Shown here: positions 12,749-64,000 of the stretch, one piece after another
Layout of the letters: every line of letters begins with the position of its first letter
How positions within the stretch are numbered: position 1 is the stretch's first letter
From: Tulasnella sp. 424
Taxonomy: Eukaryota; Basidiomycota; Agaricomycetes; Cantharellales; Tulasnellaceae
Assembly (NCBI GenBank): GCA_019633425.1
Contig: WSUB01000008.1
Span: 1-64,000 of the forward strand
Direction: 5' to 3'
DNA: 64,000 nt
Notes under the pieces: generated by a model
What the model was told of the DNA's origin: nothing
Databases searched by the model: none
Seen by the model: the letters and a program-made list of their open reading frames with translations, nothing else
Made by a program: the position numbers and the translations under genes

Positions 12749-13211
12749 CCGACATCGGATCCTTCCAGCATGCTTTCCGCATTTACCACTCTGTTCCATT
12801 AATTTTATTGTCGTTTTCTGGAATTTGGCGTTTGTCCACTCCCCAATTATCTTGAGATTCTCACGTTGCTTAGTCAGCAAGAGCCTTATAAGCGTCGATC
12901 GAGCGTGAAATTTTCTCCTTACAGTTCTAACTTCGCCTCAACTCTGCAGACATCCAACGAGCGTAGCACTTCAGTGCCGATGGATGATGGTTTGGAGCGA
13001 AGACTAAGTAGTGTTGTCTTTATAGAACCCATCCCTTCCACAGAGCACGGTTTTCATGTTCTCATCGAAGGGCTGTGGTGTCGGAGACTTCATACATATC
13101 GACATGTGCTATCTATGTACCTCTAACAGATACTATTTATGAGTGTGTTCGTTTGGGAGGGAAAACAAATTTAAGATCGTCTCCTCATCGCCTCAGCGCC
13201 CGCGAAAAATG
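12749..13211. other. Intergenic between mL43 and the tRNA-like array
   Basis: No gene recognised. It holds the 3' flank of mL43 (T-rich near 12800-12830) and the region downstream, in the minus sense, of the first tRNA-like copy. The run AAAAA at 13205-13209 reads as a T5 stretch in the minus sense, directly after that copy, which would suit RNA polymerase III termination. Confidence 0.4.
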
Positions 13212-13285
13212 CCGACCGGGACGACTCGAACGTCCAGTGTTCTGTCAAATACCGACAGGTGTGTTGCCCGTTACACCACAGCCGA
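13212..13285 (-). tRNA. tRNA-like element, copy 1
   Basis: Reads on the minus strand as a cloverleaf. The acceptor TCGGCTG pairs with CGGTCGG; here pair 7-66 is G-C, where the other copies have A-T, a compensatory change. The A box is TGGTGTAACGG, and the T arm is GGACG-TTCGAGT-CGTCC with all five pairs Watson-Crick. The anticodon stem CTGTC/GACAG is perfect, with loop GGTATTT. Position 33 is G instead of the invariant U, so a normal elongator role is doubtful. The stretch between D stem and T stem is two bases longer than in copies 2 and 5. A T5 run lies just downstream. Overall closest to a glutamate-type tRNA body. Confidence 0.5.
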
Positions 13286-13468
13286 CAGAGAAGCCTTTGG
13301 CACGAATAAACTTTCAGTTCTATTCATCCTGAGGTCATGCCTCTGTCCTCATACTGCAGGGTAGGGCGTCTCGAGGCAGAGACCGCTCGAGAGAGCTCTG
13401 CAGTTTGATGATATACCTGTACATGAAAAATCAAGCGAGAATGAAATCCCCCGCCATGACGCGATCTG

Positions 13469-13540
13469 CCGACCAGAACGACTCGAACGTCCAGCATTTC
13501 AGGTTAGATCTGAATGTGTTACCCGTTACACCATAGCCGA
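13469..13540 (-). tRNA. tRNA-like element, copy 2 (anticodon position reads CTA)
   Basis: Minus-strand cloverleaf of standard spacing. Acceptor TCGGCTA/TGGTCGG, D stem GTGT/ACAC with A box TGGTGTAACGG, anticodon stem TTCAG/CTGAA, five-base variable loop, T arm GGACG-TTCGAGT-CGTTC. The seven-base loop ATCTAAC has the canonical T33 and places CTA at 34-36, which would read the amber codon UAG. No T-run terminator follows. It may be a real non-standard tRNA or a decayed copy whose anticodon is meaningless. Confidence 0.5.
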
Positions 13541-13721
13541 CAAGAGACCACTTCCACTACAGATAATCCCTCACAGTATGCCGAACCTCAGAGTCTCCAA
13601 ACAAGGGCGGATTTTGGCATCTGAGTGCGATCATTCTTCGATAGGCCAAGCACCGCAACCGCGGGATCGCCTTGCGCACGAGATTGAACATAAAGTCTGA
13701 CCCTTGCCACGACACGAACTG

Positions 13722-13792
13722 CCGACCAGAACGACTCGAACGTCCAGCAATTGCCTGAAGGGCAATTATGTTACCCGTTACACCATGGCCGA
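13722..13792 (-). tRNA. tRNA-like element, copy 3
   Basis: Same body as its neighbours (A box TGGTGTAACGG, T loop TTCGAGT, acceptor TCGGCCA/TGGTCGG, where base 6 is C and pairs properly with G67). The anticodon arm is a different sequence but perfectly paired: ATTGCC/GGCAAT around CTTCA. With a six-pair stem the loop shrinks to five bases. TTC, the glutamate anticodon, can be seen inside it. The D stem has one G-T pair. The 3' trailer is followed by a conserved GTTCGTGTCG shared with copies 4 and 5. Confidence 0.5.
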
Positions 13793-14006
13793 CAAGAAAC
13801 CAATTACTCGACATATGATTCCTCACACTGTGCCAAATCTCAGAGCCTGCGAACAGCCGCCATATTTACAACCAAGCATACTCGTGTACGCGTTCTCCGC
13901 TAGGAAAAGGTTCGCAAGTGCAGAATTGCCCTACTCACGAGAATGAAGATAAAGTCTGACACCAATCCAATCAAATCTGTGAGCGCCTTTGTTGTGACAC
14001 GAACTG

Positions 14007-14079
14007 CCGACCAGAACGACTCGAACGTCCAGCTTCCAGCAAGAAGCGCCGGATGTGTTACCCGTTACACTATAGCCGA
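14007..14079 (-). tRNA. tRNA-like element, copy 4
   Basis: Minus-strand cloverleaf with the shared acceptor, D and T arms (A box slightly changed, TAGTGTAACGG). The anticodon arm is TCCGGC/GCTGGA around GCTTCTT. TTC lies at the anticodon positions but base 33 is C. The arm is two bases longer than standard. Flanks match copies 3 and 5. Confidence 0.5.
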
Positions 14080-14207
14080 CAGGGAACCAAGCTCACGGTA
14101 ATTATAACAGAATTCAATCTCGGAATCTCCAAACAACTCGCTAGGAACAAGACTGAAGATTGGAGATTGGATATAATATCAGAGAACCCTTGTCGCGACA
14201 CGAACTG

Positions 14208-14279
14208 CCGACCAGAACGACTCGAACGTCCAGTTTTTCGGCGAAAGGCCGAATGTGTTACCCGTTACACCATAGCCGA
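14208..14279 (-). tRNA. tRNA-like element, copy 5
   Basis: Minus-strand cloverleaf of standard length. Acceptor TCGGCTA/TGGTCGG, A box TGGTGTAACGG, T arm GGACG-TTCGAGT-CGTTC. The anticodon arm TTCGGC/GCCGAA encloses CTTTC, which equals the C-T-T-T-C of a glutamate (UUC) anticodon loop if the extra closing pair is ignored. No terminator T-run follows immediately. Confidence 0.5.
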
Positions 14280-14280
14280 C

Positions 14281-14834
14281 GAAGGCTTTCTTGCCAAGGG
14301 CATAATTCAGACTCAACCCATAACCAACACACGATAAACGCCGCACGGGTAAGGTGCCCACAGCACTGCCTGACAGCGCCGAACGTTTTATCTAAATGCT
14401 TTGATCGCCGTTCTTGAACAAATAGCAAGTCGACCTTGTCGCTTACTTTGACCTGCACATTGAAACCCCCTGGAACGTGCTGGCAGGGACCGCTCAGCCA
14501 TGTGGCGAAGAGAGCTTTAGAATATTGTCCGTCCATTACACGATGGGTCAGGTATATAAATTTCAACGTTACTTGACCGCCACCTGTACCTCAAGAACTA
14601 TGCCTACCATTGTCGTTCGCACCAGGCTTGAAATGCGCCCCTTGACGGTGAGTGGTGGCAGTGACGCTGTGGCCAACATCCTGGACAGCCCTCGCTGAAC
14701 TTAATAGCTTATCGACTTCCCTTCTAATTATATGTCTACCGGACGGTATCCATAGCGAACATATCTACACCTTCAATATATTACCAAGTGCTAACCGGAG
14801 TAGCTCAGGCAGGGAGGAGGTCCCAAAAGATACA
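14281..14834. other. Intergenic between tRNA-like array and RAD54 3' end
   Basis: No convincing exon. An open frame at 14477-14698 (plus) has no recognisable content. The upstream (minus-sense 5') side of the array lies here; no TATA-like or other external Pol III element stands out. Confidence 0.35.
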
Positions 14835-33251: not shown

Positions 33252-33973
33252 TAGACCCTCTGCTATTTAATCCGTTAGAGGTCAAGCTTATCCGAACTGA
33301 GATAGCATTTAGCTCTCGCGAGGAGGCGAGACCGAGGAGCTGTGGATGAGAGCCGCCACGATGTCGGAGCTGTACTTTCGAACGAGCGAGTTGAGATAAA
33401 GGAGTAGAGAGCGATAGTAGTAGAGCTGGAAATGAGCTTGACGGTGGAAACGATTCGACACGGGTTGAAGTGATAGGATTGGAATGAACGGCCCGGCCCA
33501 AATCCCAATCACAGACGGCGTGGGAAACCAATGACGAGGGTAACCCAGACTCTTGATTGTGAACCCAAAGGCGCAAGGATAAAATAGGAAAACGTTTTGC
33601 TCAAATGACATGACCGGATCGAGAGAGCTGAAAGGGCAAACCAATGTCAATCCACGTTGCTTTCGGCCTTGAACTTGCAGGTGGGTGATAACTCCGTCAC
33701 GGCGTCTTTTGCGCGGGAACTATCAAGTTTGGTTCACGATCAGCCCTCGAGTTTCACCCACCGCTTGGACCGTTTCGCCCACAAACAAGAATCTGCGTTC
33801 GTCTGAATCGGGCCGCACTACAAGCTGACGAGCCCTCACTACATCTCATATACTGTGAGTTTTGCAAACGTATAGTGGTTGCGAATAGTCGGCGTCCTTT
33901 TTGACCTTTCTGACGCGCAGTGTCGCCACCCTTGTCCTGCATCCCCAGGGCCAAACCCAGCGTAATCTATATA
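33252..33973. promoter_or_regulatory. Divergent promoter region, carrier / large RGG-RS protein
   Basis: Roughly 720 bp between the two start codons. TTCTGACGCGCAG at about 33908-33920 looks like an intron end, so the rightward gene probably has a spliced 5' leader with a donor near 33850. A long minus-strand open frame here (33305-33576) has no recognisable content. Confidence 0.4.
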
Positions 33974-36900
33974 ATGCAACCATCCTCCAACCAAGTGTAT
34001 CTCAGACCTAGAAAACCCTCTCCTTCGGAACCAGCCATGTCATCGTCCTCTGGGAGCTCGCCGGCGGGCGAAGACGTCGCAATGGATGCGTCTCCGTCAG
34101 ACGACAGCAACTACGATCCATTAGCAGACGGCCCACCACCGCTTTCGATGTCAGCTTCCTCTAGCACCCAAATACAACCGTCTCCTTCACCGAAAACTCC
34201 TGCACCACCGACTTTTGAGACATTTACGTTCAGCTCTACACTACCGCTCCCGGTCCAGAAAACAACGTTTAGCAAGGGCAAGGGGATCGAGCGCAAAGCC
34301 CCGAGCCTTTTGTCGCGTATGGGCGATCCTACCAATGAAGACTCTGAAATGATGGATGCAGCATCTGTCGAGTGGCATCCAGCACGGGAACTCGATGCAA
34401 CTCCACTACGCATTGCGCCCAAGTCTTTCCCTTCAGCCAGAGGCTCGTTACTCGACCGAATATCGAGCGGTAATCCCTCACCCCTGGCCAGGCCTGCTCC
34501 TACTAAACAAGCAGCTAAACCACCACCTCTCGCTGCTCCAGAGGAAGTAGCACCGCGTCAGGCAGGCTCAGGCGAGCGGGGCCGCTTGCTCGCGAATCGT
34601 CTCGGGCTGGGAGTAACTTCAATTCTGTTGCCACCATCTCCAACCCCGAACGCCAGCCCTTCAACAGGACTGGTGCCTACATCGGCTCCTTCACCTGTGG
34701 CATCCGTTCCATTTATCACAGTTCAAGCTTCGGCGCCAAGTCCAGCGACATTGATACCTGAACAGGCCACCACTCAACCCTTACTAAGCTCCCTTCTGCC
34801 GTCCTCTGCCCCACCTCTCTTACCTCCGCCGCATGCACAAATTGAAAGTGCTTCTGCCATCGTCCCCGGCCCATCCACCGCTCCATCATCTTCTGCTACC
34901 CTTGCGTTGTCAAAACCTGTCTCAAAAATATTTCAACGTGATCCATTTGTAGGAACACCCTATGAGCTCCCCAAATCACCTACACCATTGGAGAGACTGA
35001 TGGCTGAGGTAGCACAAGAACAGAACGAGTGGGCGGAGGTCTCCAACAAGTTGCGCAAGGAAGATGATTCGCGCGCACAAGGAGAGGAACGAGTGCAGGG
35101 ACTCCAGAAACAAGCTAGGCAGAGAGAACCAGAAGAAGTGGACCGAGTAGAACGAGAGCGTCGTGCGATCGAGGAGCGACCTCTTTCACGAGGCGCGGAA
35201 GAAATCAGCATCGGAGACGAACAACAGCGTCAAGAGGAAGCAGAAGCGACGCGTCTGCCTACTGAAGAAAAGGAAAGCCGACGTGAAGAGGAGCTTCAAC
35301 GGGATAGTATCATGACGGAGGTCCATCAGTCGTCGTCCGTTCCTGTGCCAGTCTCGGTCCCCTCCCAGCTCCTCCTTCAGCCAGCTCCTTCCCCAGCGCC
35401 CACACCGGAAACTCGAGAACTTACCGGGGTCGAATGGCTTCGGCAGCAGTACAACCAAGATAGGGAACGTCCCCAGAGTATTACTAGTGGTGGCTCCGGT
35501 CCTTCCTTCAGGGAGCATACTCAAGTCTCTCCCAAAGCAGCAGCCTCGAATGCCAAGTCTAGAGCAATCCTCGCTTTGGCAAGTTCACGGAATATTCCTC
35601 CTTCGGGTAGTGGCCATGTTGGTGGAACCCGGGTCAAGACTCATTCGCCTGCTCCATGGAGCCCATCTCGTCAACGAAGGAATACTTCTCGTGTTGCTCC
35701 AGCCCCTCCTGTAACCTGGGAGCAACCCGAACAGAAGTTTGAGATACCTCAAACAGGTCAACAGATAGCGAATCCCCTTCATTCACTAACTTCTTCGGTA
35801 AGGAACGTGGCGTTGAGGCAATTGGGGGGAGTGCTTTCTCGTCAGACCGAAACCATTGGGCCTGCAGCTTCGTCTACCGAAGCTCAGAGGCTCCTACCAT
35901 TCCCCCTTATTAGAGCTCCCCGTCAACATGCTATTACTCCAGAGCCATTTGTGAAGACTGAAGCCAAATCGGAAGAAGCGAGCCCAGTCTTCCTTCCAAC
36001 CTCTCTCCACCCGGAGAACGATATTTCAGCTCAAGTGGCGGCCCGACCGTCGATTCCAGAGGTAAATGAACGCATATTTGGTGATGACCAGCGTCCACTT
36101 CGAATTCCCCGACAGAGAAGTCCTTCCTCACCACCACGCCAACTTACTACTATTCATGCTGAAGAAGAGACGTCAACGATGATGACTTCGAGATTCCCGC
36201 CACGGGCCCAAACGCCAGGCCATCTTCCTCCCCCTCTTTGGCATTCTGAAGTCACCGCGGGTATGGAGGGGGTTGATGGATTGATATCCGCTTCCGAGAC
36301 ACCCTCTCCTTCATCTCCCGGTGTCGGACTATTGCCAACGATGAGGGTGGCCACTTCTCAACCCACAAGACAGTTGGAACATGAAGTACCTCTACCCCAC
36401 TTGCCGTCAAAACAACTCAGTCAGCTTGCCGAACAAGGAGGGTCTATCTTGGGTGTGGCACAAGACTCCAATGTACAAGACTCTCCTGAAACGACGGGTC
36501 CCCACCTTGCCCGACCAGGTGTTCACCAACCGCCTACCATTCTATTCGCGCCCCCAGATCACTCGAACGCCGATTTGAACCGCCTAACACATCAGCCAAC
36601 TGCTGGGCTGGATCGAGTTCTCCCGTCACCGACAGAGATTGCTCGTGCCCATGACCTGCCCAGCAAACCTCCACAAGTCCAAGTTAACAAGTCCCTCCCT
36701 CTCGACCTCCCAGCGAAACCGGCAACGAGCCCTAGGATGCGGATGCAGAGCGAGCCTCGCACGATGCTTCAAGAAAGCCAATCTGTTCTCCGGACCGAAG
36801 AACAAGTTCCTAAGCCTGATCCTTATCCCAACCCTCTGGCTGGCCGATCATATGGACCTCCCAAGGAACGGAGCCGAGTCCCGACAACCTTGGACGCAGG

Positions 36901-38602
36901 ACAGCTTCCAAATGCACTCGGCTTGGCTGGTTCACAGGGCACAACTCGACACGATGGCTACAAGCCATCACGAACGCCGCCCCTACCAAATTCGATACTG
37001 CATTCGACGGCAGTATCGGACCAAGGCCGAAAGCGGGAGCGAACAGGTGATGTCGACCATCAAACCGCAGACTTCCCTCCACCCAAACGCCACCAGGCGG
37101 AACAGATGTCGAAAGAAAGAAGCGATGGAGTAAATCATGGAGCCGATGTGTCCCCGTATGCGAGACTTCCTTTAGGCAACACAGAAATTTCTGAGCCTCG
37201 GGACCCACGCGTTGCTCCAGGTCGTGGTCGGGGTTTCGCATCAAGAGGCCGTGGCCGTGGAGCACCGAGGGTAGGAGGTCATGAAAGCTTCAATGAAGAC
37301 CGCACAAGCCGTTCAGGACACGCTGAAGATGATCACGATACCAGACATTATGAAGACTACGACAGGCGCCGACGCTATTACGACCGGTCCGATCGAGATG
37401 TGGACCGACGGCCTGCACCTTACGAATCCCACAATTCGAGGCCCCTCGAAAGCGATTATCGAACAGAAAGAGCTGGGCGAGGTATTCCCCCTGCGCCATA
37501 CAGAGGTCGCACCCCTGAAAGAGAGCCACGTCCTCGAGCTCCACCTAGGGGCCCTCGCCGTGTGGAGGAGCGACAGTACGATAGCAGGTCTTACCGGGAC
37601 GTCGATCGGGATCGTCATTCCCGACACGAAGACTCAAGCCGCCACCCCAACGAGGCACAGCGTATGGAATCATACTACCCACCTCGCGACGACTCCCGGG
37701 CATATGCCTCTGCGCCCCGTCCTGGCGAAATTCGTCGACATGATTATTCTCGGTACGATGAGCCACGCGATTTTCGTCGTTCCAGGTCACCGCCAGCCCG
37801 GCGCCGCTCCCCTTCACCCCCACCAAGTGCAGATCGGTACAGTCGGCATAATTACGACGAATATAGGGAAGGCGGATCTTCCTCGTTGTCGGGTCGAATT
37901 CGAACACATCCAATACCATCTTCTCGGGAGGCATGGTCTGAGAATAGCCGGGACTACGGCGATCGAGCCCATGGGGAGCCCGCATGGGAAACCCGTGATG
38001 AGGTGATGGATAGGTCATACCGAGAGTTTTCAACAATATCATCGCAGAATTCTGAACAAGAGTATCGTGACACCGAGGCACCAATAAATCAAGCAGCGTG
38101 GCCGAATCAGACGTTGGAGGAAAGGGGATTTCCCGATACGATGCCAGCCGACCCTCCTCAAAGATTCGAACACGATACAATTGCAACAGAACGCCATGCA
38201 ACGGGCGCCCCATCAAGTTCAACCTTGGGGGAAGTTGACATGCCGATCGATGTTATCAAGCGCTTACCACCAACCTCTCCTCGTGCTATGCGGCTATCGT
38301 TCGATCATGGACAACCTGAAGCGGAGACCAGGCGGCCTGAAAGCACGCTTGTTCATCCTCAGGCTCGGGGTCCAATCGCGAGCCAATCTCCTAAATCTAA
38401 CGCCGTGCCGCTGTCGGAACGCGTTGGAGACCCTCTGCCGCCGTCTAAATCTTCTGGCCCATCCCTCTCCTCTCGTTTAACAGATCCAGCTCCTGACCAC
38501 AGTCTAGCCTCACGTTTCCAACCCCCTTCTCGTCCGGCTCCAAGATCAGCACCCACCAAACCAGGAAATGCAGGGCTGTCTTTACTAAACCGGATGGGCT
38601 AA
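33974..38602 (+). CDS. Large disordered RGG/RS-rich protein with repeated SLLxRMG motifs
   Basis: A 1542-residue uninterrupted frame, exceptional in this intron-rich window. I recognise no folded domain. The first 40% is Ser/Pro/Ala-rich with a coiled-coil-like Glu/Arg/Gln stretch (about residues 350-470). The middle is Pro-rich. Around residues 1080-1320 it becomes Arg/Gly and Arg/Asp/Ser/Tyr-rich (GRGRGFASRGRGRG, then RS and SPPP dipeptides), as in splicing and RNA-binding proteins. A short motif recurs: SLLSRMGDP, SLLDRIS, LLANRLG, LSERVGDP, SLSSRLTDP, and SLLNRMG as the very C-terminus. A nuclear mRNA-processing scaffold is a reasonable inference. Long frames on other strands inside it are by-products of composition. 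Confidence 0.75.
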   Translation: MQPSSNQVYLRPRKPSPSEPAMSSSSGSSPAGEDVAMDASPSDDSNYDPLADGPPPLSMSASSSTQIQPSPSPKTPAPPTFETFTFSSTLPLPVQKTTFSKGKGIERKAPSLLSRMGDPTNEDSEMMDAASVEWHPARELDATPLRIAPKSFPSARGSLLDRISSGNPSPLARPAPTKQAAKPPPLAAPEEVAPRQAGSGERGRLLANRLGLGVTSILLPPSPTPNASPSTGLVPTSAPSPVASVPFITVQASAPSPATLIPEQATTQPLLSSLLPSSAPPLLPPPHAQIESASAIVPGPSTAPSSSATLALSKPVSKIFQRDPFVGTPYELPKSPTPLERLMAEVAQEQNEWAEVSNKLRKEDDSRAQGEERVQGLQKQARQREPEEVDRVERERRAIEERPLSRGAEEISIGDEQQRQEEAEATRLPTEEKESRREEELQRDSIMTEVHQSSSVPVPVSVPSQLLLQPAPSPAPTPETRELTGVEWLRQQYNQDRERPQSITSGGSGPSFREHTQVSPKAAASNAKSRAILALASSRNIPPSGSGHVGGTRVKTHSPAPWSPSRQRRNTSRVAPAPPVTWEQPEQKFEIPQTGQQIANPLHSLTSSVRNVALRQLGGVLSRQTETIGPAASSTEAQRLLPFPLIRAPRQHAITPEPFVKTEAKSEEASPVFLPTSLHPENDISAQVAARPSIPEVNERIFGDDQRPLRIPRQRSPSSPPRQLTTIHAEEETSTMMTSRFPPRAQTPGHLPPPLWHSEVTAGMEGVDGLISASETPSPSSPGVGLLPTMRVATSQPTRQLEHEVPLPHLPSKQLSQLAEQGGSILGVAQDSNVQDSPETTGPHLARPGVHQPPTILFAPPDHSNADLNRLTHQPTAGLDRVLPSPTEIARAHDLPSKPPQVQVNKSLPLDLPAKPATSPRMRMQSEPRTMLQESQSVLRTEEQVPKPDPYPNPLAGRSYGPPKERSRVPTTLDAGQLPNALGLAGSQGTTRHDGYKPSRTPPLPNSILHSTAVSDQGRKRERTGDVDHQTADFPPPKRHQAEQMSKERSDGVNHGADVSPYARLPLGNTEISEPRDPRVAPGRGRGFASRGRGRGAPRVGGHESFNEDRTSRSGHAEDDHDTRHYEDYDRRRRYYDRSDRDVDRRPAPYESHNSRPLESDYRTERAGRGIPPAPYRGRTPEREPRPRAPPRGPRRVEERQYDSRSYRDVDRDRHSRHEDSSRHPNEAQRMESYYPPRDDSRAYASAPRPGEIRRHDYSRYDEPRDFRRSRSPPARRRSPSPPPSADRYSRHNYDEYREGGSSSLSGRIRTHPIPSSREAWSENSRDYGDRAHGEPAWETRDEVMDRSYREFSTISSQNSEQEYRDTEAPINQAAWPNQTLEERGFPDTMPADPPQRFEHDTIATERHATGAPSSSTLGEVDMPIDVIKRLPPTSPRAMRLSFDHGQPEAETRRPESTLVHPQARGPIASQSPKSNAVPLSERVGDPLPPSKSSGPSLSSRLTDPAPDHSLASRFQPPSRPAPRSAPTKPGNAGLSLLNRMG

Positions 38603-40697: not shown

Positions 40698-42384
<1,687 letters not shown>

Positions 42385-49381: not shown

Positions 49382-52300
49382 ATGTCGGGGAGATTGACGG
49401 CCTTTGCCAGACATCCGCTTTCAAAGCCGCCTGCAACATCCAATCAATTATCTCAGGTTCTCACAGGTGGTGTCTCGACACAGGAGCTCTACGATAAAAA
49501 TAATTCCACCAAGAGTGCCGCATTAGCTCTACTAAAGGTAGTCCCGCCTGCCAGTAGCGCCCAAGACTCGTCGGGCTAACAACTTCGATACCCCAGGACA
49601 CCAGCTGGCCACCCGAGTCAGAGGATGCCGCCCAAAATTTGTTACACACAATCAACAACTTACCTGACTTTCCTCGAGATGTAACCCCCGTCAAAGATAC
49701 TGTTGAGGAGTTCATCTAGTGAGTATGGCCATGAGCAGATAACGCGGCGCGCGCGCGCTAAAACTTGTTCTTCCACAGCGTCCTGGAAGCCGCACATACG
49801 AGGCTGAAGAAAGCGTCCGAGTCGTATGGAAGGAAAGAAAGAGGATTCAGTGAGGGTATTAAGTACAGCTTCGCTTCGCTTCGTCGCAGCAAATGTACCG
49901 ATATCTTGCGGACTTGCCGAGAAGATGTCGAGAAGGTCTCGATAAAGTTTCGCGTGAGTGGATAGATGTCCATATCGCCTTTCGAAGTCGCTCATATGAC
50001 CTTATAGAGTCGCTTAGACAGTGTAGCTACGATAGGTAAGTGGCTGGCTAAACTTGTTGACCAGGGCAAACTAATGGAATACCTGGTTCGACCGGGTTAG
50101 GAAAGGAAGGCTCAGATACGCCTTCCAGCCTTCAAAATCCATCAACCACACCCCTCTTTGAAGTGCAACGTTCTGTAGAGCCATCGGAACCCCCCAGTCT
50201 GAAGACGAAGCTCGCTGAGCAATCCATCACCTCGGAACATCCGGCCAGCCACAAACCATCTGTCCTAGGCTCGTCACCAGATTCCCCCGAAGATCTAAAA
50301 CCTCGTAGCACCATTCGAGAAGGAGCTCTAACTGCAGCCAGGAAGACATTCGAGGCTGTGGAAGTCGTATCTGGAGCGATTCCCGTCGTTGGCGATTACG
50401 TCGGAGTTGTCGCAAAAGTAGGACTGGGCTTGGTCAACATGATCGAGGTAAAATTATACTGGCTTTATCTGTCTCTTCGTGTCCTAACCTAGAGCTTCTA
50501 GACCATGGACAAAAACGAGGATGTGGCAAAGGAGCTGGCTTTCGACACATCCAAGCTATCCAAATATCTGGAACACTTTAGGAAGAAATCAGAAGTAGGG
50601 AACGGAGACGAGATGGCTGTGCACGTCCACGATCTGCAAGGGTACGTCGGTCCTCTTCATGCAACGAACCTAGAGTGGCAGGATGACGTGTTGCCAGGGA
50701 GCTCGAGAACATTCAGAAGAAAGTCGACCGATGGAATTCTTTGGGCCGCTTCAAGAAGGCCTTTTTATCTACCGACCACGCCGATGAACTCAAAGGTCAT
50801 CAGGATATTATTCAGACTGCTCTGGAAGAGATGCAGGTACGTTACGCATTCACGTCCACCATTCGGTCACCTCACTTTCGTCGATAATAGTTACTTGTCA
50901 GCTTGAAAACGAGTGATCTCATCGTCGAACTCAGTATGTTTTTACTCGCACTATTTTGTAGCCGGACTCTTCTGACACGTTTGATTTAGGGGATACGGAA
51001 CTGCGGGCGGAGCGGCGTCGTCTTCTAGACCGCTTAGGAGACGGAAGTTACGGAGCGAGAGGAAGCTCGATCGAAGATGTCGTATGCCTTCCTGGCACAA
51101 GAGTCGACATACTAGACCGCATTAACACCTGGATCAGAGATACTTCGGCCTCGGCGGAGCGTGTTCTCTGGATTCGGGGAATGGCGGGACGCGGGAAATC
51201 GACGATCGCATCTACTGTCGCCCACACTTGGGCATCGAAAGGGTCCTGTGCCATTTTTCATTTTCGCCGCGGCCAAAATGCGTCGGGCGACCAGTTTGTT
51301 TGTGCGCTGGCCAGGCAACTTGGAAAAGGCTTGGTTCCCGAAGTAAAGAATGCGATCCTGGATTGCGTGAAGGACAACGAAGATATCGCAAAGGGACGCC
51401 TTGACCAGCAGTTCAAATCTCTCTTCGTCGCTTCACTTGGGAAGCTTCAGGATCACGGCCATCCGATCGTTATCATCGTTGATGCCCTCGACGAATGCCA
51501 TAGCGTCGCCGACACGGTGCGATTCGTGCGGCTCATTGATCAGCACTCTTCATTCCTCCCTGCCAATGTCAAATTCCTCCTTACATGTCGCCCTGAAGCA
51601 CCTCTCCTTGTCGCCCTTGAACCAAAGAAGTGGCACGCGGAAGACCTCGACTCGATACCACACGTCTCTGACGACATTACTCGGTTTATCGAACAAGCCT
51701 GCGCGAAAATCAGAGATGACCATAGTCTCCCGGAGAACTGGCCTTCGCCGGCCGATGTAGAAGGCATCGTCGACATGTCCCAGGGTCTGTTTCAATGGGC
51801 TCGTACGGCAATCACACACGTCGGGGATAGGTCGCCTATCCATCGACTGCGAGAATTGCTGAGACGCTCATTGGCGTGGGAGGGACTCGACGATCTGTAC
51901 CACCAAATCCTTTCCAAAGCGTTCAACGAGGTGGGAAAAAACTCGGAGCGCAAACAGCTGCTATCGTGGGTGCTAGAAACACTCATAGTAGCGCCTTATC
52001 CTGTATCACTTGAGGTCATCGCTTTCCTGTACGCCGACCACGAAATCTTCAACGGTCAAGAAGATACTGTCCGGTTTCTGCGGAACGACATTCTCGCGGA
52101 CCTGAACTCCCTTCTTCATATCCCCAAATCCCCATGCGAACCGCTGCGTCTGATGCATACATCCATTCGCGATCTTCTAGTGGCCCCAGGACGGTGCGAA
52201 AATCAGCATTATTTCGTTGAGCCCAATCGCGGCCACCAGCGCCTCGCCAGCGTCAGCCTTGGAATCATGGAACGTGACCTCAAGAAAAACATATGCAATT

Positions 52301-54967
52301 TGTCGGACCTTTCCAAGGCCAACTCCGAGGTCCAAGATGCGGTGGAGAGTTATGTACCCAAGGGACTTCGATACTGCTGTCGTGCATGGTCCATTCATTT
52401 GACAAATGGGATACCATGGCCGGAGAATAGTGGGGCGACTGGCAGCGATGTCTTACGCCAGTTCAAATCGGTTAGCGAAAAGAAGCTCCTCGCCTGGGTT
52501 GAAGTTATGAGTTTGATCGGAGCTACAAATGACGCATTCACCGTCGCAAAGCAGGTGCATCAGTGGCTTCTAGTGAGCATTTCAGATCAAAATTACGGTG
52601 CATAAAGTGCTGTAACTGATCTAACCATGGGGTTCGCAGCGATGGCCCCAGGATGTGTCCCCCGGTGACTTAGCCGCTCTCTGGAATGACACCCAGCGAT
52701 TCATCCCCCTATTTTCCGAGCCAATCTCGTTCGGTGCCCTTCACATTTATGCCTCAGCCCTCCCACACTGCCCAACGGGCACAAGCCTATGGGCGAGGTA
52801 TGGAGGTCAAGCAACAGCCCGAATTCTGCAGGGCAGGCGGCCACTCAACTGGCCAGCTAACATTTGGACATCAACGTTCAATTCACCTGTACAAATCATT
52901 TTATTCTCGCCGGACGGCAGGGTTCTGGCATGTTCTTTGCAGGACAAGGTTCAATTGTTGGATGCTCAGACTGGGGCACCCTTGGGAGACCCTCTGACCG
53001 ATCAGATCAGAACCATTACCTTTTCTCCAGACAGCAAAGTTCTGGAATCTGTGACGTATGACGGAGCGGTTCGACTTTGGGACGTTCAGACTGGTGCATC
53101 AATGGGCGACCCTCTGGGCGGTCACGAAGGCCAGGTCGACTCCGTTGCCTTCTCGCCGGACAGCAAAGTCCTGACATCTGGGTCGAGAGACTTGGCGTCT
53201 ATACTACGGGTCACTGAAAATGGAGCACCAGCGGCCGACCATCCGACCGGTCACATAAGCTTTTCGCTGGATGGCCAATTTCTGGCATCGTCGCATGGCA
53301 GCACCGTTCGATTATGGGACAGTCAAACGAGAGCACCAGTGGGCGACCCTCTAACCGGACACGAAGGAGAAATCATATTTCTCGTCTTCTCACCAGACGG
53401 CAAGGTTCTAGCATCCGCGTCGTGGGACCACACGATTCGATTATGGGATTCTCAGACCGCAACGCCCGTGGGTGTACCTCTGACCGGACACAAAAATAAG
53501 ATCAGCCATGTTGTATTTTCACCGGACAGCAAGGTTCTGGCATCTGGGTCGTCTCGCGGCACAGTTCGATTATGGGATGCTCAGACTGGAAAACCAGTGG
53601 GCGACCCACTAACCGGACACAAACACGGGACCATATTTCTCGTCTTTTCACCGGACGGCAAGTTCGTGGTATCTGGCGGATATGATGGCGTGATTCGATC
53701 ATGGGATTCTCAGACCGGCGCACGAGTGGGCAACCTTCTGACCGGCCACAAGCACAATATCACCTCCGTTGCCTTTTCGCCGGACGGAAAGGTTCTGGCA
53801 TCTGTATCAGAGGACAAGACCGTTCGATTATGGGATACTCCGACTGGGGCAACGGTGGGCGACCCCCTGACGGTTCACCGTGACAAACACTCGATCGACT
53901 CCGTTGTCTTTTCACCAGACGGCAAGGTTCTGGCATCTATATCTCCTAACAGGACGGTTCAGTTGTGGGATGCTCAGACTGGAGCAGCGGTGGGCGACCC
54001 TCTGAACTGTCGCAATAACCCGATCTGCTGCCTTGTCTTTTCGCCAGGCGGCAAGTTCCTGACATCCGTGGGGTATGACTGGACGGCTCGATTATGGGAT
54101 GCTCAGACCGGGGCGGCGGTGGGCTACCCTCTGACCGGCCGGATCTACTCCGTTGCCTTTTCGCCAGATGGCAAGGTTCTGGTGTCTGGGTCGGATGACG
54201 ACACGGTTCGCTTATGGGATGTTCAGACTGCGACACCCGTGGGTGAACCTCTGACCGGACACAAAAACATCAACCATGTTGTCTTTTCCCCGGACAGCAA
54301 GGTTCTGGCATCTGGGTCGGATGACGGCACGGTTCAATTATGGGATGCTCAGACTGGAGAACCAATGGGCGACCCTCTAATTGGACACAAAGACGGGATC
54401 CTATTTCTCGTCTTTTCACCGGACGGCAAGGTTTTGGCATCTGGGTCGCATTACAATACGGTTCAATTGTGGGATGTTCAGACTGGTGCGCCAGTGGGCA
54501 ACCCTCTGACCAATGAGGAGCCCTTGCTTCCCGCCTTTTCGCCGGACGGCAAGGTCTTGGTATCTGGATCGGATCAAACGGTTCGACTATGGGATGCTCA
54601 GACTGGGGCACCAGTTGGTGCACCTATGACTGGTCACGAACGCCAGATCACCTCCGTTGTCTTTTCACCGGACGGCAAGGTCCTGGCATCACACTCATCC
54701 GACAGGGTAGTTAAACTATGGGATCCCTTCACTTGCCAAGAATACACCGGTTCTCTTAATGATTTTACTCTCAGACATCTTCTTTTCGACTCACCCTGGA
54801 TATCCCATAATTCCAAGCGGTTGTTCTGGTTACCCCCTCACTACCAGAGTGAACGTCGGTTAGAAATCCTATTCTCCCATGGCAGACTTGCTTTTGGATA
54901 TGATGAAGGCTTTGTTATCATGGATGTTTCTGAGTGCCTGGAGTTTTTACTTCACTCTGTACGATAG
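49382..54967 (+). CDS. NLR-like STAND receptor: MLKL-like N-domain, NACHT, WD40 propeller
   Basis: Starts MSGRLTAFARHPLSK. The N-terminal exons encode a helical region, including a glycine/valine-rich stretch (VVSGAIPVVGDYVGVVAKVG) and FKKAFLSTDHADELKGHQDI, resembling the four-helix HeLo/MLKL-type domains of fungal NLRs. The NACHT NTPase has Walker A GMAGRGKST, Walker B IVIIVDALDEC and the sensor region FLLTCRPEAP. A linker follows with LRLMHTSIRDLL, typical before repeats, and ends in FGALHIYASALPHCP. The last exon codes for about 15 WD40 units of very similar sequence (FSPDGKVLASGSDDGTVRLW type). The C-terminus reads LFWLPPHYQSERRLEILFSH. An in-frame intron around 52574-52640 joins the NACHT and WD40 exons. 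Inferred role: non-self recognition and regulated cell death. Confidence 0.82.
52900..54740 (+). repeat. WD40-coding tandem repeats, about 15 units of 120-130 bp
   Basis: Each unit contains TTTTCACCGGACGGCAAGG-like DNA followed by TGGGATGCTCAGACTGG-like DNA. Units 5-7 and 11-13 form matching blocks: each reads TATPVG, then the HVVFSPDSKVLASGS type, then the FLVFSPDGK type. This shows that a three-blade segment was duplicated. Unit 3 has lost the RLWD core and is degenerate. Confidence 0.8.
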
Positions 54968-62647: not shown

Positions 62648-64000
62648 ATGTCGACCACTTCTCAATTCCCAACAAAATCTGTTACGAACAAACCACTGGG
62701 TCTAGGATATTCCTTCTTCCCTTCCCCACAGCAAAACAGCCACAAATCAACACCCCAGCTCTGGCCTGGAGTCTCATCCGAATCTGAAAGCGAGCTTGCC
62801 AGTTTACTCAGACTCGACAATGAAAAGCACCATATATTCTTCAACGATCAAGGCTTCCACAAGTACGTACACCAGCATGCCGTTCAAGTGTCTGTACTTA
62901 TGAGCGCTCTTCCCTGTCCAGCCACCTCACCCACCACCTCTTCGCTGCATACGCCATGGGGTGTTCACCCGAGGCAAGAGCAATTTTAAGATCAGTTGCG
63001 CCTTGTGCTCACTACCACTCGAACAACCTTCCACTTCGCAGGTCTTGAGCGCCGCCTACAAACTCCACGCAGACTATCAACACCCCGCGTTTAAAAGTCC
63101 AAGCGATATCACCGAGAACAACTGGACGGAACACCTAGGAAAGCGGGAGTAAGCGTCCTCTTCAGTCCATCGATGGCGTTCTAGACCTCATCGCCTCCTC
63201 CATCCCATAGCTATTACAACGCCTACATGCACTTTTACGCCTCCCAAATCAACGCCCACGGTCCACCAAAGACCTTGGAGAAGTACGTTTTTTCAAAAGA
63301 AGCGAACCTAACGCCCGAAGGCAAACAAGGCGCTCAGATGTTGGACCGCTTCATGAGTGGGCTCTTGCATCCCATGATCCATACGGGTCACTGGGCAGAG
63401 TTCCACGTCCCGGGAATGCTAGCGGAAGGTACGCACCACCTTCGTGTTTTAATTCACGCCCGCGGAAATCATAATACGACTCGTCGAATTGAAATAGGCC
63501 TCGCCCTCGCTTCAACCACCCCTGCGAGCTCGCCCCACCTCTTCCCGCCGGATTTCTTCGACTACGGCACCCAACAGCCCGAGTCATCAGCTCAATCCAT
63601 TGTCGACCATGCAGCGACGGCGCTCCGCAACCTCTCCCTCAACAACCCTCGCTCCTCCTCACCTTCCGCTTACACCGGCGGGTCTCACTCCCTCGACATC
63701 CTTCACCGCATGCTCCAAGACCCCAACCTCGCGGCCGGAAAGACGTGCAGACAAGATAGCGGAAGCAAGTTTAGCGATACGCTGCGAGCTGCAGGTGACA
63801 AGATCCGAGAATACGCAAAGATGTGGCAGGTCGATTCGGAGAGTGAAGTTCCTCAAAAGCTGGAAGAGGTCGCTTGGCTCGCCACGCTTGTCTATGGACT
63901 AGGCGGGTGGAGGAAAGGAAAGGATTTCCGCTCGGACTTCTTCCTGTGAGTGGGCTCGACTAGCTAGCCCCTTTCTGCCGAAAGCTCCGCTCACATTTGG
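62648..64000 (+). CDS. Questin oxidase-like (DUF4243) protein, 3' end outside the window
   Basis: Family of Baeyer-Villiger-type oxidases acting on anthraquinones (AflY/GedK/questin oxidase group). Exon 1 from 62648 contains GLGYSFFPSPQQNSHK, PGVSSESESELASLLRLDNE and HHIFFNDQGFHN, and splices to HLTHHLFAAYAMGCSPE. Exon 3 begins VLSAAYKLHADYQHPAF and reads ITENNWTEHLGKR. Exon 4 has YYNAYMHFYASQINAHGPPK, LEKYVFSKEAN and SGLLHPMIHTGHWAEFHVPG. The next has GLALASTTPASSPHLFPPDF and continues to about 63947, where a GTGAGT donor follows FRSDFFL. The HLTHHL and HPMIHTGHWAEF histidines are family hallmarks. The intron after CSPE appears to use a GC donor (GAG|GCAAGA). Truncated by the window edge. 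Confidence 0.82.

Follow-up and report, generated by a model that had tools for sequence, protein, structure and literature searches.

The first 64 kb of contig C427 of Tulasnella sp. 424 (hereafter the window; the genome comprises 46.8 Mb in 448 contigs) harbors five tRNA-like units on the minus strand, each 74-77 bases long and spaced 201-285 bases from start to start (Table 1). Five such elements with a nearly constant acceptor, D and T body had been proposed in an earlier reading of this DNA (the original prediction), and both statements were borne out: between 13210 and 14280 all five units were called by ARAGORN, and their bodies are 92-97% identical within the window. The calls are of four kinds (Ile (TAT), Pyl (CTA), Glu, Glu and Lys). 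Two of the five units reached the gathering score of the Rfam tRNA model (RF00005) with default filters and four with permissive filters. All five share one layout, which consists of an 8-bp acceptor stem (usually GTCGGCTA with TGGTCGGC), a D arm of GTGT with ACAC or ACAT, the anticodon arm, a variable arm, a T arm of GGACG with CGTTC or CGTCC and a final base A. No intron was detected in the units. Directly 3' of the body on the minus strand lies a short trailer that reads GTTCGTGTC for units 3-5 and GATCGCGTC for unit 2, and the trailers of units 2-5 match each other better than the remaining flank does.

The five anticodon-arm stems named in the original prediction are all present and paired, but not all are perfect, since the stem of the unit at 14005 contains a G-U pair. 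Similarly, pair 7-66 of the first copy is indeed G-C on both sides, and its pair 50-64 becomes G-C as described, but here the change is one-sided only (G-U to G-C). The absence of U at position 33 (U33) in four of the five units was confirmed by eye, assuming a 7-base loop.

Table 1. Coordinates of the tRNA-like units, predicted transcription signals and truncated copies (window positions unless a locus is given)
Feature	Position	Strand	Remarks
tRNA-like unit 1	13210..13286	-	77 nt; arm ACCTGTCGGTATTTGACAGAACACT; acceptor pair 7-66 is G-C; without Rfam tRNA match even under permissive filters
tRNA-like unit 2	13467..13541	-	75 nt; arm with 5-bp stem, 7-base loop and U33; would-be anticodon CTA
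tRNA-like unit 3	13720..13793	-	74 nt; arm with 7 Watson-Crick pairs and 5-base loop
tRNA-like unit 4	14005..14080	-	76 nt; arm stem of 7 pairs, G-U among them; a different structure is favoured when the whole unit folds freely
tRNA-like unit 5	14206..14280	-	75 nt; arm with 6-bp stem and 5-base loop
AT-rich box 5' of unit 1	13305..13310	-	predicted upstream element of RNA polymerase III
AT-rich box 5' of unit 2	13563..13567	-
AT-rich box 5' of unit 3	13813..13820	-
AT-rich box 5' of unit 4	14099..14107	-
AT-rich box 5' of unit 5	14302..14307	-
T5 run right behind unit 1	13205..13209	-	predicted terminator
T5 run downstream of units 3 and 2	13426..13430	-	first run of at least four T for both; putative shared terminator
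T4 run downstream of units 5 and 4	13905..13908	-	first run of at least four T for both; putative shared terminator
C112 copies without T arm	L054 4745-4806, 2583-2644, 2087-2149	-	62-63 bases; good 5' half; found with the family model

A second cluster on contig C112

Comparison of the units with the whole genome for copy number and arm variety, a check that had been proposed with the original prediction, revealed a second cluster on contig C112 (362624-370672). It holds 14 further full-length units, all on the same strand, and again the arms are all unlike. The family therefore comprises 19 full-length units, five in the window and 14 on C112, of which C368200 (C112) is decayed. A family model run over the window and 40 kb of C112 gave 25 matches, 19 of them full-length units. 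Its other matches on C112 comprise three copies that lack the T arm, a far diverged one (E 1e-5) and a weak match (E 0.027), which may be real because it lies in a duplicate of the stretch holding the far diverged copy. A weak match in the window (41603-41654, E 0.017) was taken as chance. ARAGORN made 13 calls on C112, and the Rfam gathering score was reached in nine of the 14 full-length units, with scores of up to 46 bits. The C112 copies group into subfamilies. In both clusters the copies lie on one strand and outside recognised genes, and BLAST alignments between the clusters extend little past the body. The surrounding region of C112 (361-371 kb) has a GC content of 0.46-0.49, compared to about 0.51-0.54 around it, and contains tandem duplications of about 80 to 1400 bases.

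Beyond the two clusters, no copy was found in the genome with half-unit patterns (up to 3 mismatches), a two-box pattern and two DNA searches, which scored the best candidates only, and more diverged copies could escape. A tighter tRNA pattern with GGTTCGANTCC gave no matches. When up to 2 mismatches were allowed, the box A pattern matched 22 times, including 14 matches in the family (reversed control: 12), and among the five of the eight non-family matches that were inspected, ARAGORN with introns names three tRNAs (Gln, Arg and Val). Neither viral contigs nor bacterial and archaeal genomes contained the exact two-box pattern. With a looser form of box A, 12 viral contigs matched, but ARAGORN placed a tRNA (Lys) at the match in only one of them.

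Divergence of body, arm and flank

Identities were compared for 18 of the 19 units (the decayed C368200 was excluded), with flanks of 50 bases and shuffled baselines. For the 10 pairs within the window, the body is 0.92 identical in its 5' part and 0.97 in its 3' part (shuffled 0.51 for each), and the arms reach 0.58 (shuffled 0.45). The two flanks, at 0.56 and 0.54, compare with shuffled values of 0.50 and 0.47. In the 65 pairs that combine one unit from each cluster, identity is still 0.88 and 0.89 in the two parts of the body and 0.55 in the arm, for which the baseline is 0.47; the flanks, at 0.49 and 0.46, do not rise above theirs. Across the comparisons body identity spans 0.84-0.97, and box A and box B are the best preserved segments of the units. 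Decay of the body and stems at the pace of the flanks, as expected for pseudogenes, is not seen in the family as a whole. The arm thus diverges nearly at the flank rate, and little change is seen elsewhere in the unit. The proposal that the arms are individually redrawn holds in that the arm is unlike in every copy, but their divergence, nearly that of the flanks, gives no sign of change faster than neutral. Because arm and flank divergence are so close, a free sequence with a kept stem suffices as an account.

Pairing in the body and the arms

In the acceptor, D and T stems, 96.1% of 306 cells from 18 units are paired, compared to 93.4% in shuffles (none of 500 as high), and the acceptor stem alone reaches 94.4%; this evidence is moderate, since the relatedness of the copies persists through the shuffles. 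The folding of the arms was tested against 2000 mononucleotide shuffles per arm. Each window arm gave a P between 0.0025 and 0.047 (combined P 3e-6, n=5), and the combined P for all 19 arms was 5e-7, a value that is optimistic because the copies are related. An arm hairpin is predicted in 18 of the 19 units. On C112 this applies to 13 of 14 arms, several of them weak, with two of the 14 at P < 0.046 singly. Unpaired arms in most other copies, which according to the original prediction would have pointed to pseudogenes or a short interspersed element (SINE), were therefore not observed.

In a swap test of the arm halves, the own 3' half was the best partner in all five window units, and the true assignment alone of 120 reached the observed mean energy. 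The observed mean was reached by none of 20000 permutations, both for all 19 units and for one unit per subfamily, where the own half was best in seven of 11. Together with the arm folding and the constant body, the swap test supports the view that selection acts on structure and that the arms do not merely decay.

Predicted transcription signals

As controls, we used 15 ordinary nuclear tRNA genes, which were obtained from 30 tRNA loci after removal of those on C258 and C314 (taken as mitochondrial). In these controls an AT-rich box peaks between about -32 and -26. The window units carry an AT-rich box at -28 to -24 (top mean AT 0.90; P 2e-4 against random quintets), and the C112 units have an AT peak at about -28 (0.77; P 4e-4), although these P values are optimistic because units 2 and 3 are alike upstream (0.76) and the C112 copies fall into subfamilies. 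The units thus combine internal A and B boxes with an upstream AT-rich box like that of the host tRNA genes, as expected for tRNA-type genes of RNA polymerase III (Pol III). Many C112 units also have a T-run just 5' of the body, where AT is higher still than at the box; at least five T stand directly before the body in most C112 units outside the 362624/364097/366074 kind.

On C112, a T4 run follows within 30 nt downstream in 10 of 14 units (random expectation 0.19). In the window, one T-run is common to units 5 and 4 and another to units 3 and 2, which suggests that two-unit transcripts may be made.

Acceptor stem, loops and relation to tRNAs

An eighth acceptor pair, G-1:C73, is present in 17 of 18 units. 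In the controls, the acceptor stem has 7 bp in 15 of 15 genes; a standard pair at -1:73 occurs in two of the 15, both T-G, and G-C in none. The eighth pair is reminiscent of tRNA-His or bacterial tRNA-Sec. In most arms the loop has five bases, the hairpin is longer or position 33 carries a base other than U. Measured against a decoding tRNA, the family thus has a cloverleaf that is recognised by the tRNA model but lacks the 7-bp acceptor stem, and a 7-base loop with U33 is found in some members and not in the family as a whole. The 8-bp acceptor, which could bar elongation factor binding, may together with the unusual loops exclude most units from translation.

The parent was sought among 24 sampled tRNAs of the host genome with a register-fixed count over 52 body positions. 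Nuclear Glu-CTC matched at 28 of 52, a count shared by two mitochondrial-type tRNAs, and the next nuclear tRNA at 26. With the family model, nuclear Glu-CTC scored 30.6 bits, Gly 28.5 and mitochondrial-type Thr 40.4, and the two tied mitochondrial-type tRNAs scored equal to or above Glu-CTC. The statement that the body is closest to tRNA-Glu is therefore weak: it holds, narrowly, for the nuclear tRNAs of the sample, and the count ends in a tie when the mitochondrial-type tRNAs are included. Descent from tRNA-Glu is weakly favoured by these comparisons; as a named parent, tRNA-Glu was dropped in view of the small margin of Glu-CTC and the equal or higher mitochondrial-type tRNAs.

Discussion

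We consider it somewhat probable that the two clusters form a local gene family, predicted to be transcribed by Pol III, whose tRNA-like RNAs would mostly not decode and in which the body and the hairpin are kept and the sequence of the arm is free. The constant body, the self-pairing arms and the existence of two clusters support the earlier suggestion of a family of tRNA-derived structured RNAs. In such a scenario, an old tRNA gene would have been copied locally, and the copies would have been freed from the demand for a particular anticodon. Their arms would then drift at nearly the flank rate, with pairing as the sole requirement. Transcription by Pol III would yield cloverleaf RNAs, which might fold into a tRNA-like L and be recognised at the body by a tRNA-binding protein. 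The acceptor-D-T body would be the working part and the anticodon arm a stub that is kept as a hairpin. One may speculate further that an invariant Pol III-made body with its 8-bp acceptor displays a repertoire of unlike hairpins, a tRNA-scaffold library renewed by cluster duplication. To us this seems improbable, and it is just as doubtful that each arm of such a library would address its own target or serve as its own decoy.

Several observations weigh against a family of kept, non-decoding RNAs. In the window a T4 run lies within 30 nt downstream of only one of the five units (random 0.09), compared to 15 of 15 controls, and, as copies are related, their AT boxes do not count as independent observations. 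In the body, two-sided change was seen in three pairs, which is not extreme (11 of 500 shuffles gave as many), and the number of further pair types, 14, is also within the usual range (69 of 500 shuffles). When all 19 units were swapped, the own 3' half was the best partner in only five, and the free fold corresponds to the full cloverleaf in four of five window units and, by eye, in five of 14 C112 units. A 7-base loop with U33 is retained in one of the five window units and at least four of the 19 overall (13467, C362624, C364097 and C366074; by eye); C366814 would be a fifth in ARAGORN's register. Because they retain this loop, some units may decode, and those that have it could be decoding or closer to the ancestral form. 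Finally, C368200 and the three C112 copies without a T arm are decayed.

These broken copies, the lack of a nearby T4 run at four of the five window units and the richness of C112 in tandem duplications would all fit tandem tRNA pseudogenes, i.e., dead local copies with bodies that are alike through recency or gene conversion. We regard this explanation as unlikely. The bodies remain 0.84-0.97 identical in copies whose flanks and arms have diverged close to the shuffled baselines, and conversion that is confined to the body and spares the arm is hard to picture. Moreover, the arms still pair and the AT box is correctly placed. With body, box and pairing all retained, the family is unlike a pseudogene array, though some members are plainly decaying. 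A different question is how the arms came to pair. Template-switch mutations, in which one side of a stem is copied onto the other in a single event, can reportedly both generate RNA hairpins and repair them (PMC8794818). Such events could operate within a family of kept tRNA-like RNAs, and the seven Watson-Crick pairs of the unit 3 arm would agree with them; nevertheless, the G-U pairs in 14005 and C365477 and the one-sided changes between close copies fit ordinary stepwise change, and we think it rather unlikely that template switching shaped the arms.

In yeasts, tRNA genes are used as chromatin boundaries. The units might likewise be DNA-level elements, i.e., arrays of box A and box B that bind TFIIIC and need no RNA product, in agreement with the strong preservation of both boxes and with the confinement of all copies to two clusters outside recognised genes. 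However, the acceptor stem lies outside both boxes and is nevertheless conserved and paired, the arms pair too, and the AT box, plus the T-runs on C112, suggest transcription. Since a boundary element would not require a paired acceptor stem and paired arms, we hold a role at the DNA level to be improbable. Genuine decoding tRNAs with changed anticodons, suppressor-like ones included, would explain the ARAGORN calls in both clusters, the Rfam scores of up to 46 bits and the units with a 7-base loop and U33. Against this explanation stand the other loop sizes or missing U33 in most units and the 8-bp acceptor, in contrast to the 7-bp stems without G-1:C73 of the controls, and it appears quite improbable.

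Among mobile elements, the units could represent a tRNA-headed SINE or the long terminal repeats (LTRs) of a Helenus-type retrotransposon. Helenus elements are terminal-repeat retrotransposons in miniature (TRIMs) with tRNA-like LTR sequence, described from fungi including some Agaricomycetes (PMC10886601). They share with the units a tRNA-like sequence, Pol III boxes and a would-be anticodon that does not fit an isotype, and they are the closest described fungal tRNA-like element that we found. However, Helenus elements are described there as dispersed LTR elements with target-site duplications (PMC10886601), whereas every copy found here lies in one of two same-strand clusters and the window flanks do not align as LTRs. 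A search for primer sites complementary to the predicted 3' end plus CCA gave no exact site and four scattered one-mismatch matches (reversed control: 0). The lack of dispersed copies in the genome searches argues against a dispersed SINE or a Helenus-type element and does not support the SINE that the original prediction had named as an alternative. We therefore consider a mobile element very improbable indeed.

In general, the units resemble nuclear tRNA genes (RF00005) in their cloverleaf, A and B boxes and upstream AT-rich box, and in the T-run behind 10 of the 14 C112 units. They differ by the eighth acceptor pair, the unlike arms with odd loops, the absence of a detected intron and the arrangement in two clusters. 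A likeness also exists to murine gammaherpesvirus 68, which encodes several tRNA-like RNAs made by Pol III and held to be non-decoding; those RNAs are viral and joined to microRNA hairpins, whereas the family described here is fungal. In the tRNA-Cys cluster of Arabidopsis, tRNA genes likewise recur in repeats a few hundred bases long, but with one isotype and one anticodon (PMC10701932), in contrast to the all-different arms of this family. No description of a comparable cluster was found in the open literature; subscription papers were mostly outside this coverage.

If transcribed, the units would constitute an RNA family tied to its clusters, with the tRNA body selected separately from the anticodon, and they would offer a direct route to the role of the acceptor-T half outside translation. 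The many related copies also provide material to study how an RNA stem changes its sequence while it stays paired. For annotation they are a warning, since a tRNA finder lists them as genes for Ile, Glu or Lys tRNAs, or even for suppressor-like ones.

Other features of the window include two adjoining open reading frames (ORFs) at 51181-54967 (+), with NPHP3_N/NACHT followed by 11 WD40 stretches, which likely form a single fungal NACHT-WD40 receptor-like gene. An ORF of 1560 amino acids at 33920-38602 (+) matched no Pfam family at E 0.001, and the ORF at 63227-63949 (+) is Questin oxidase-like. The best relative of a Rad54-like ORF in the window comes from Tulasnella sp. 427 (Cantharellales), with 83% identity.
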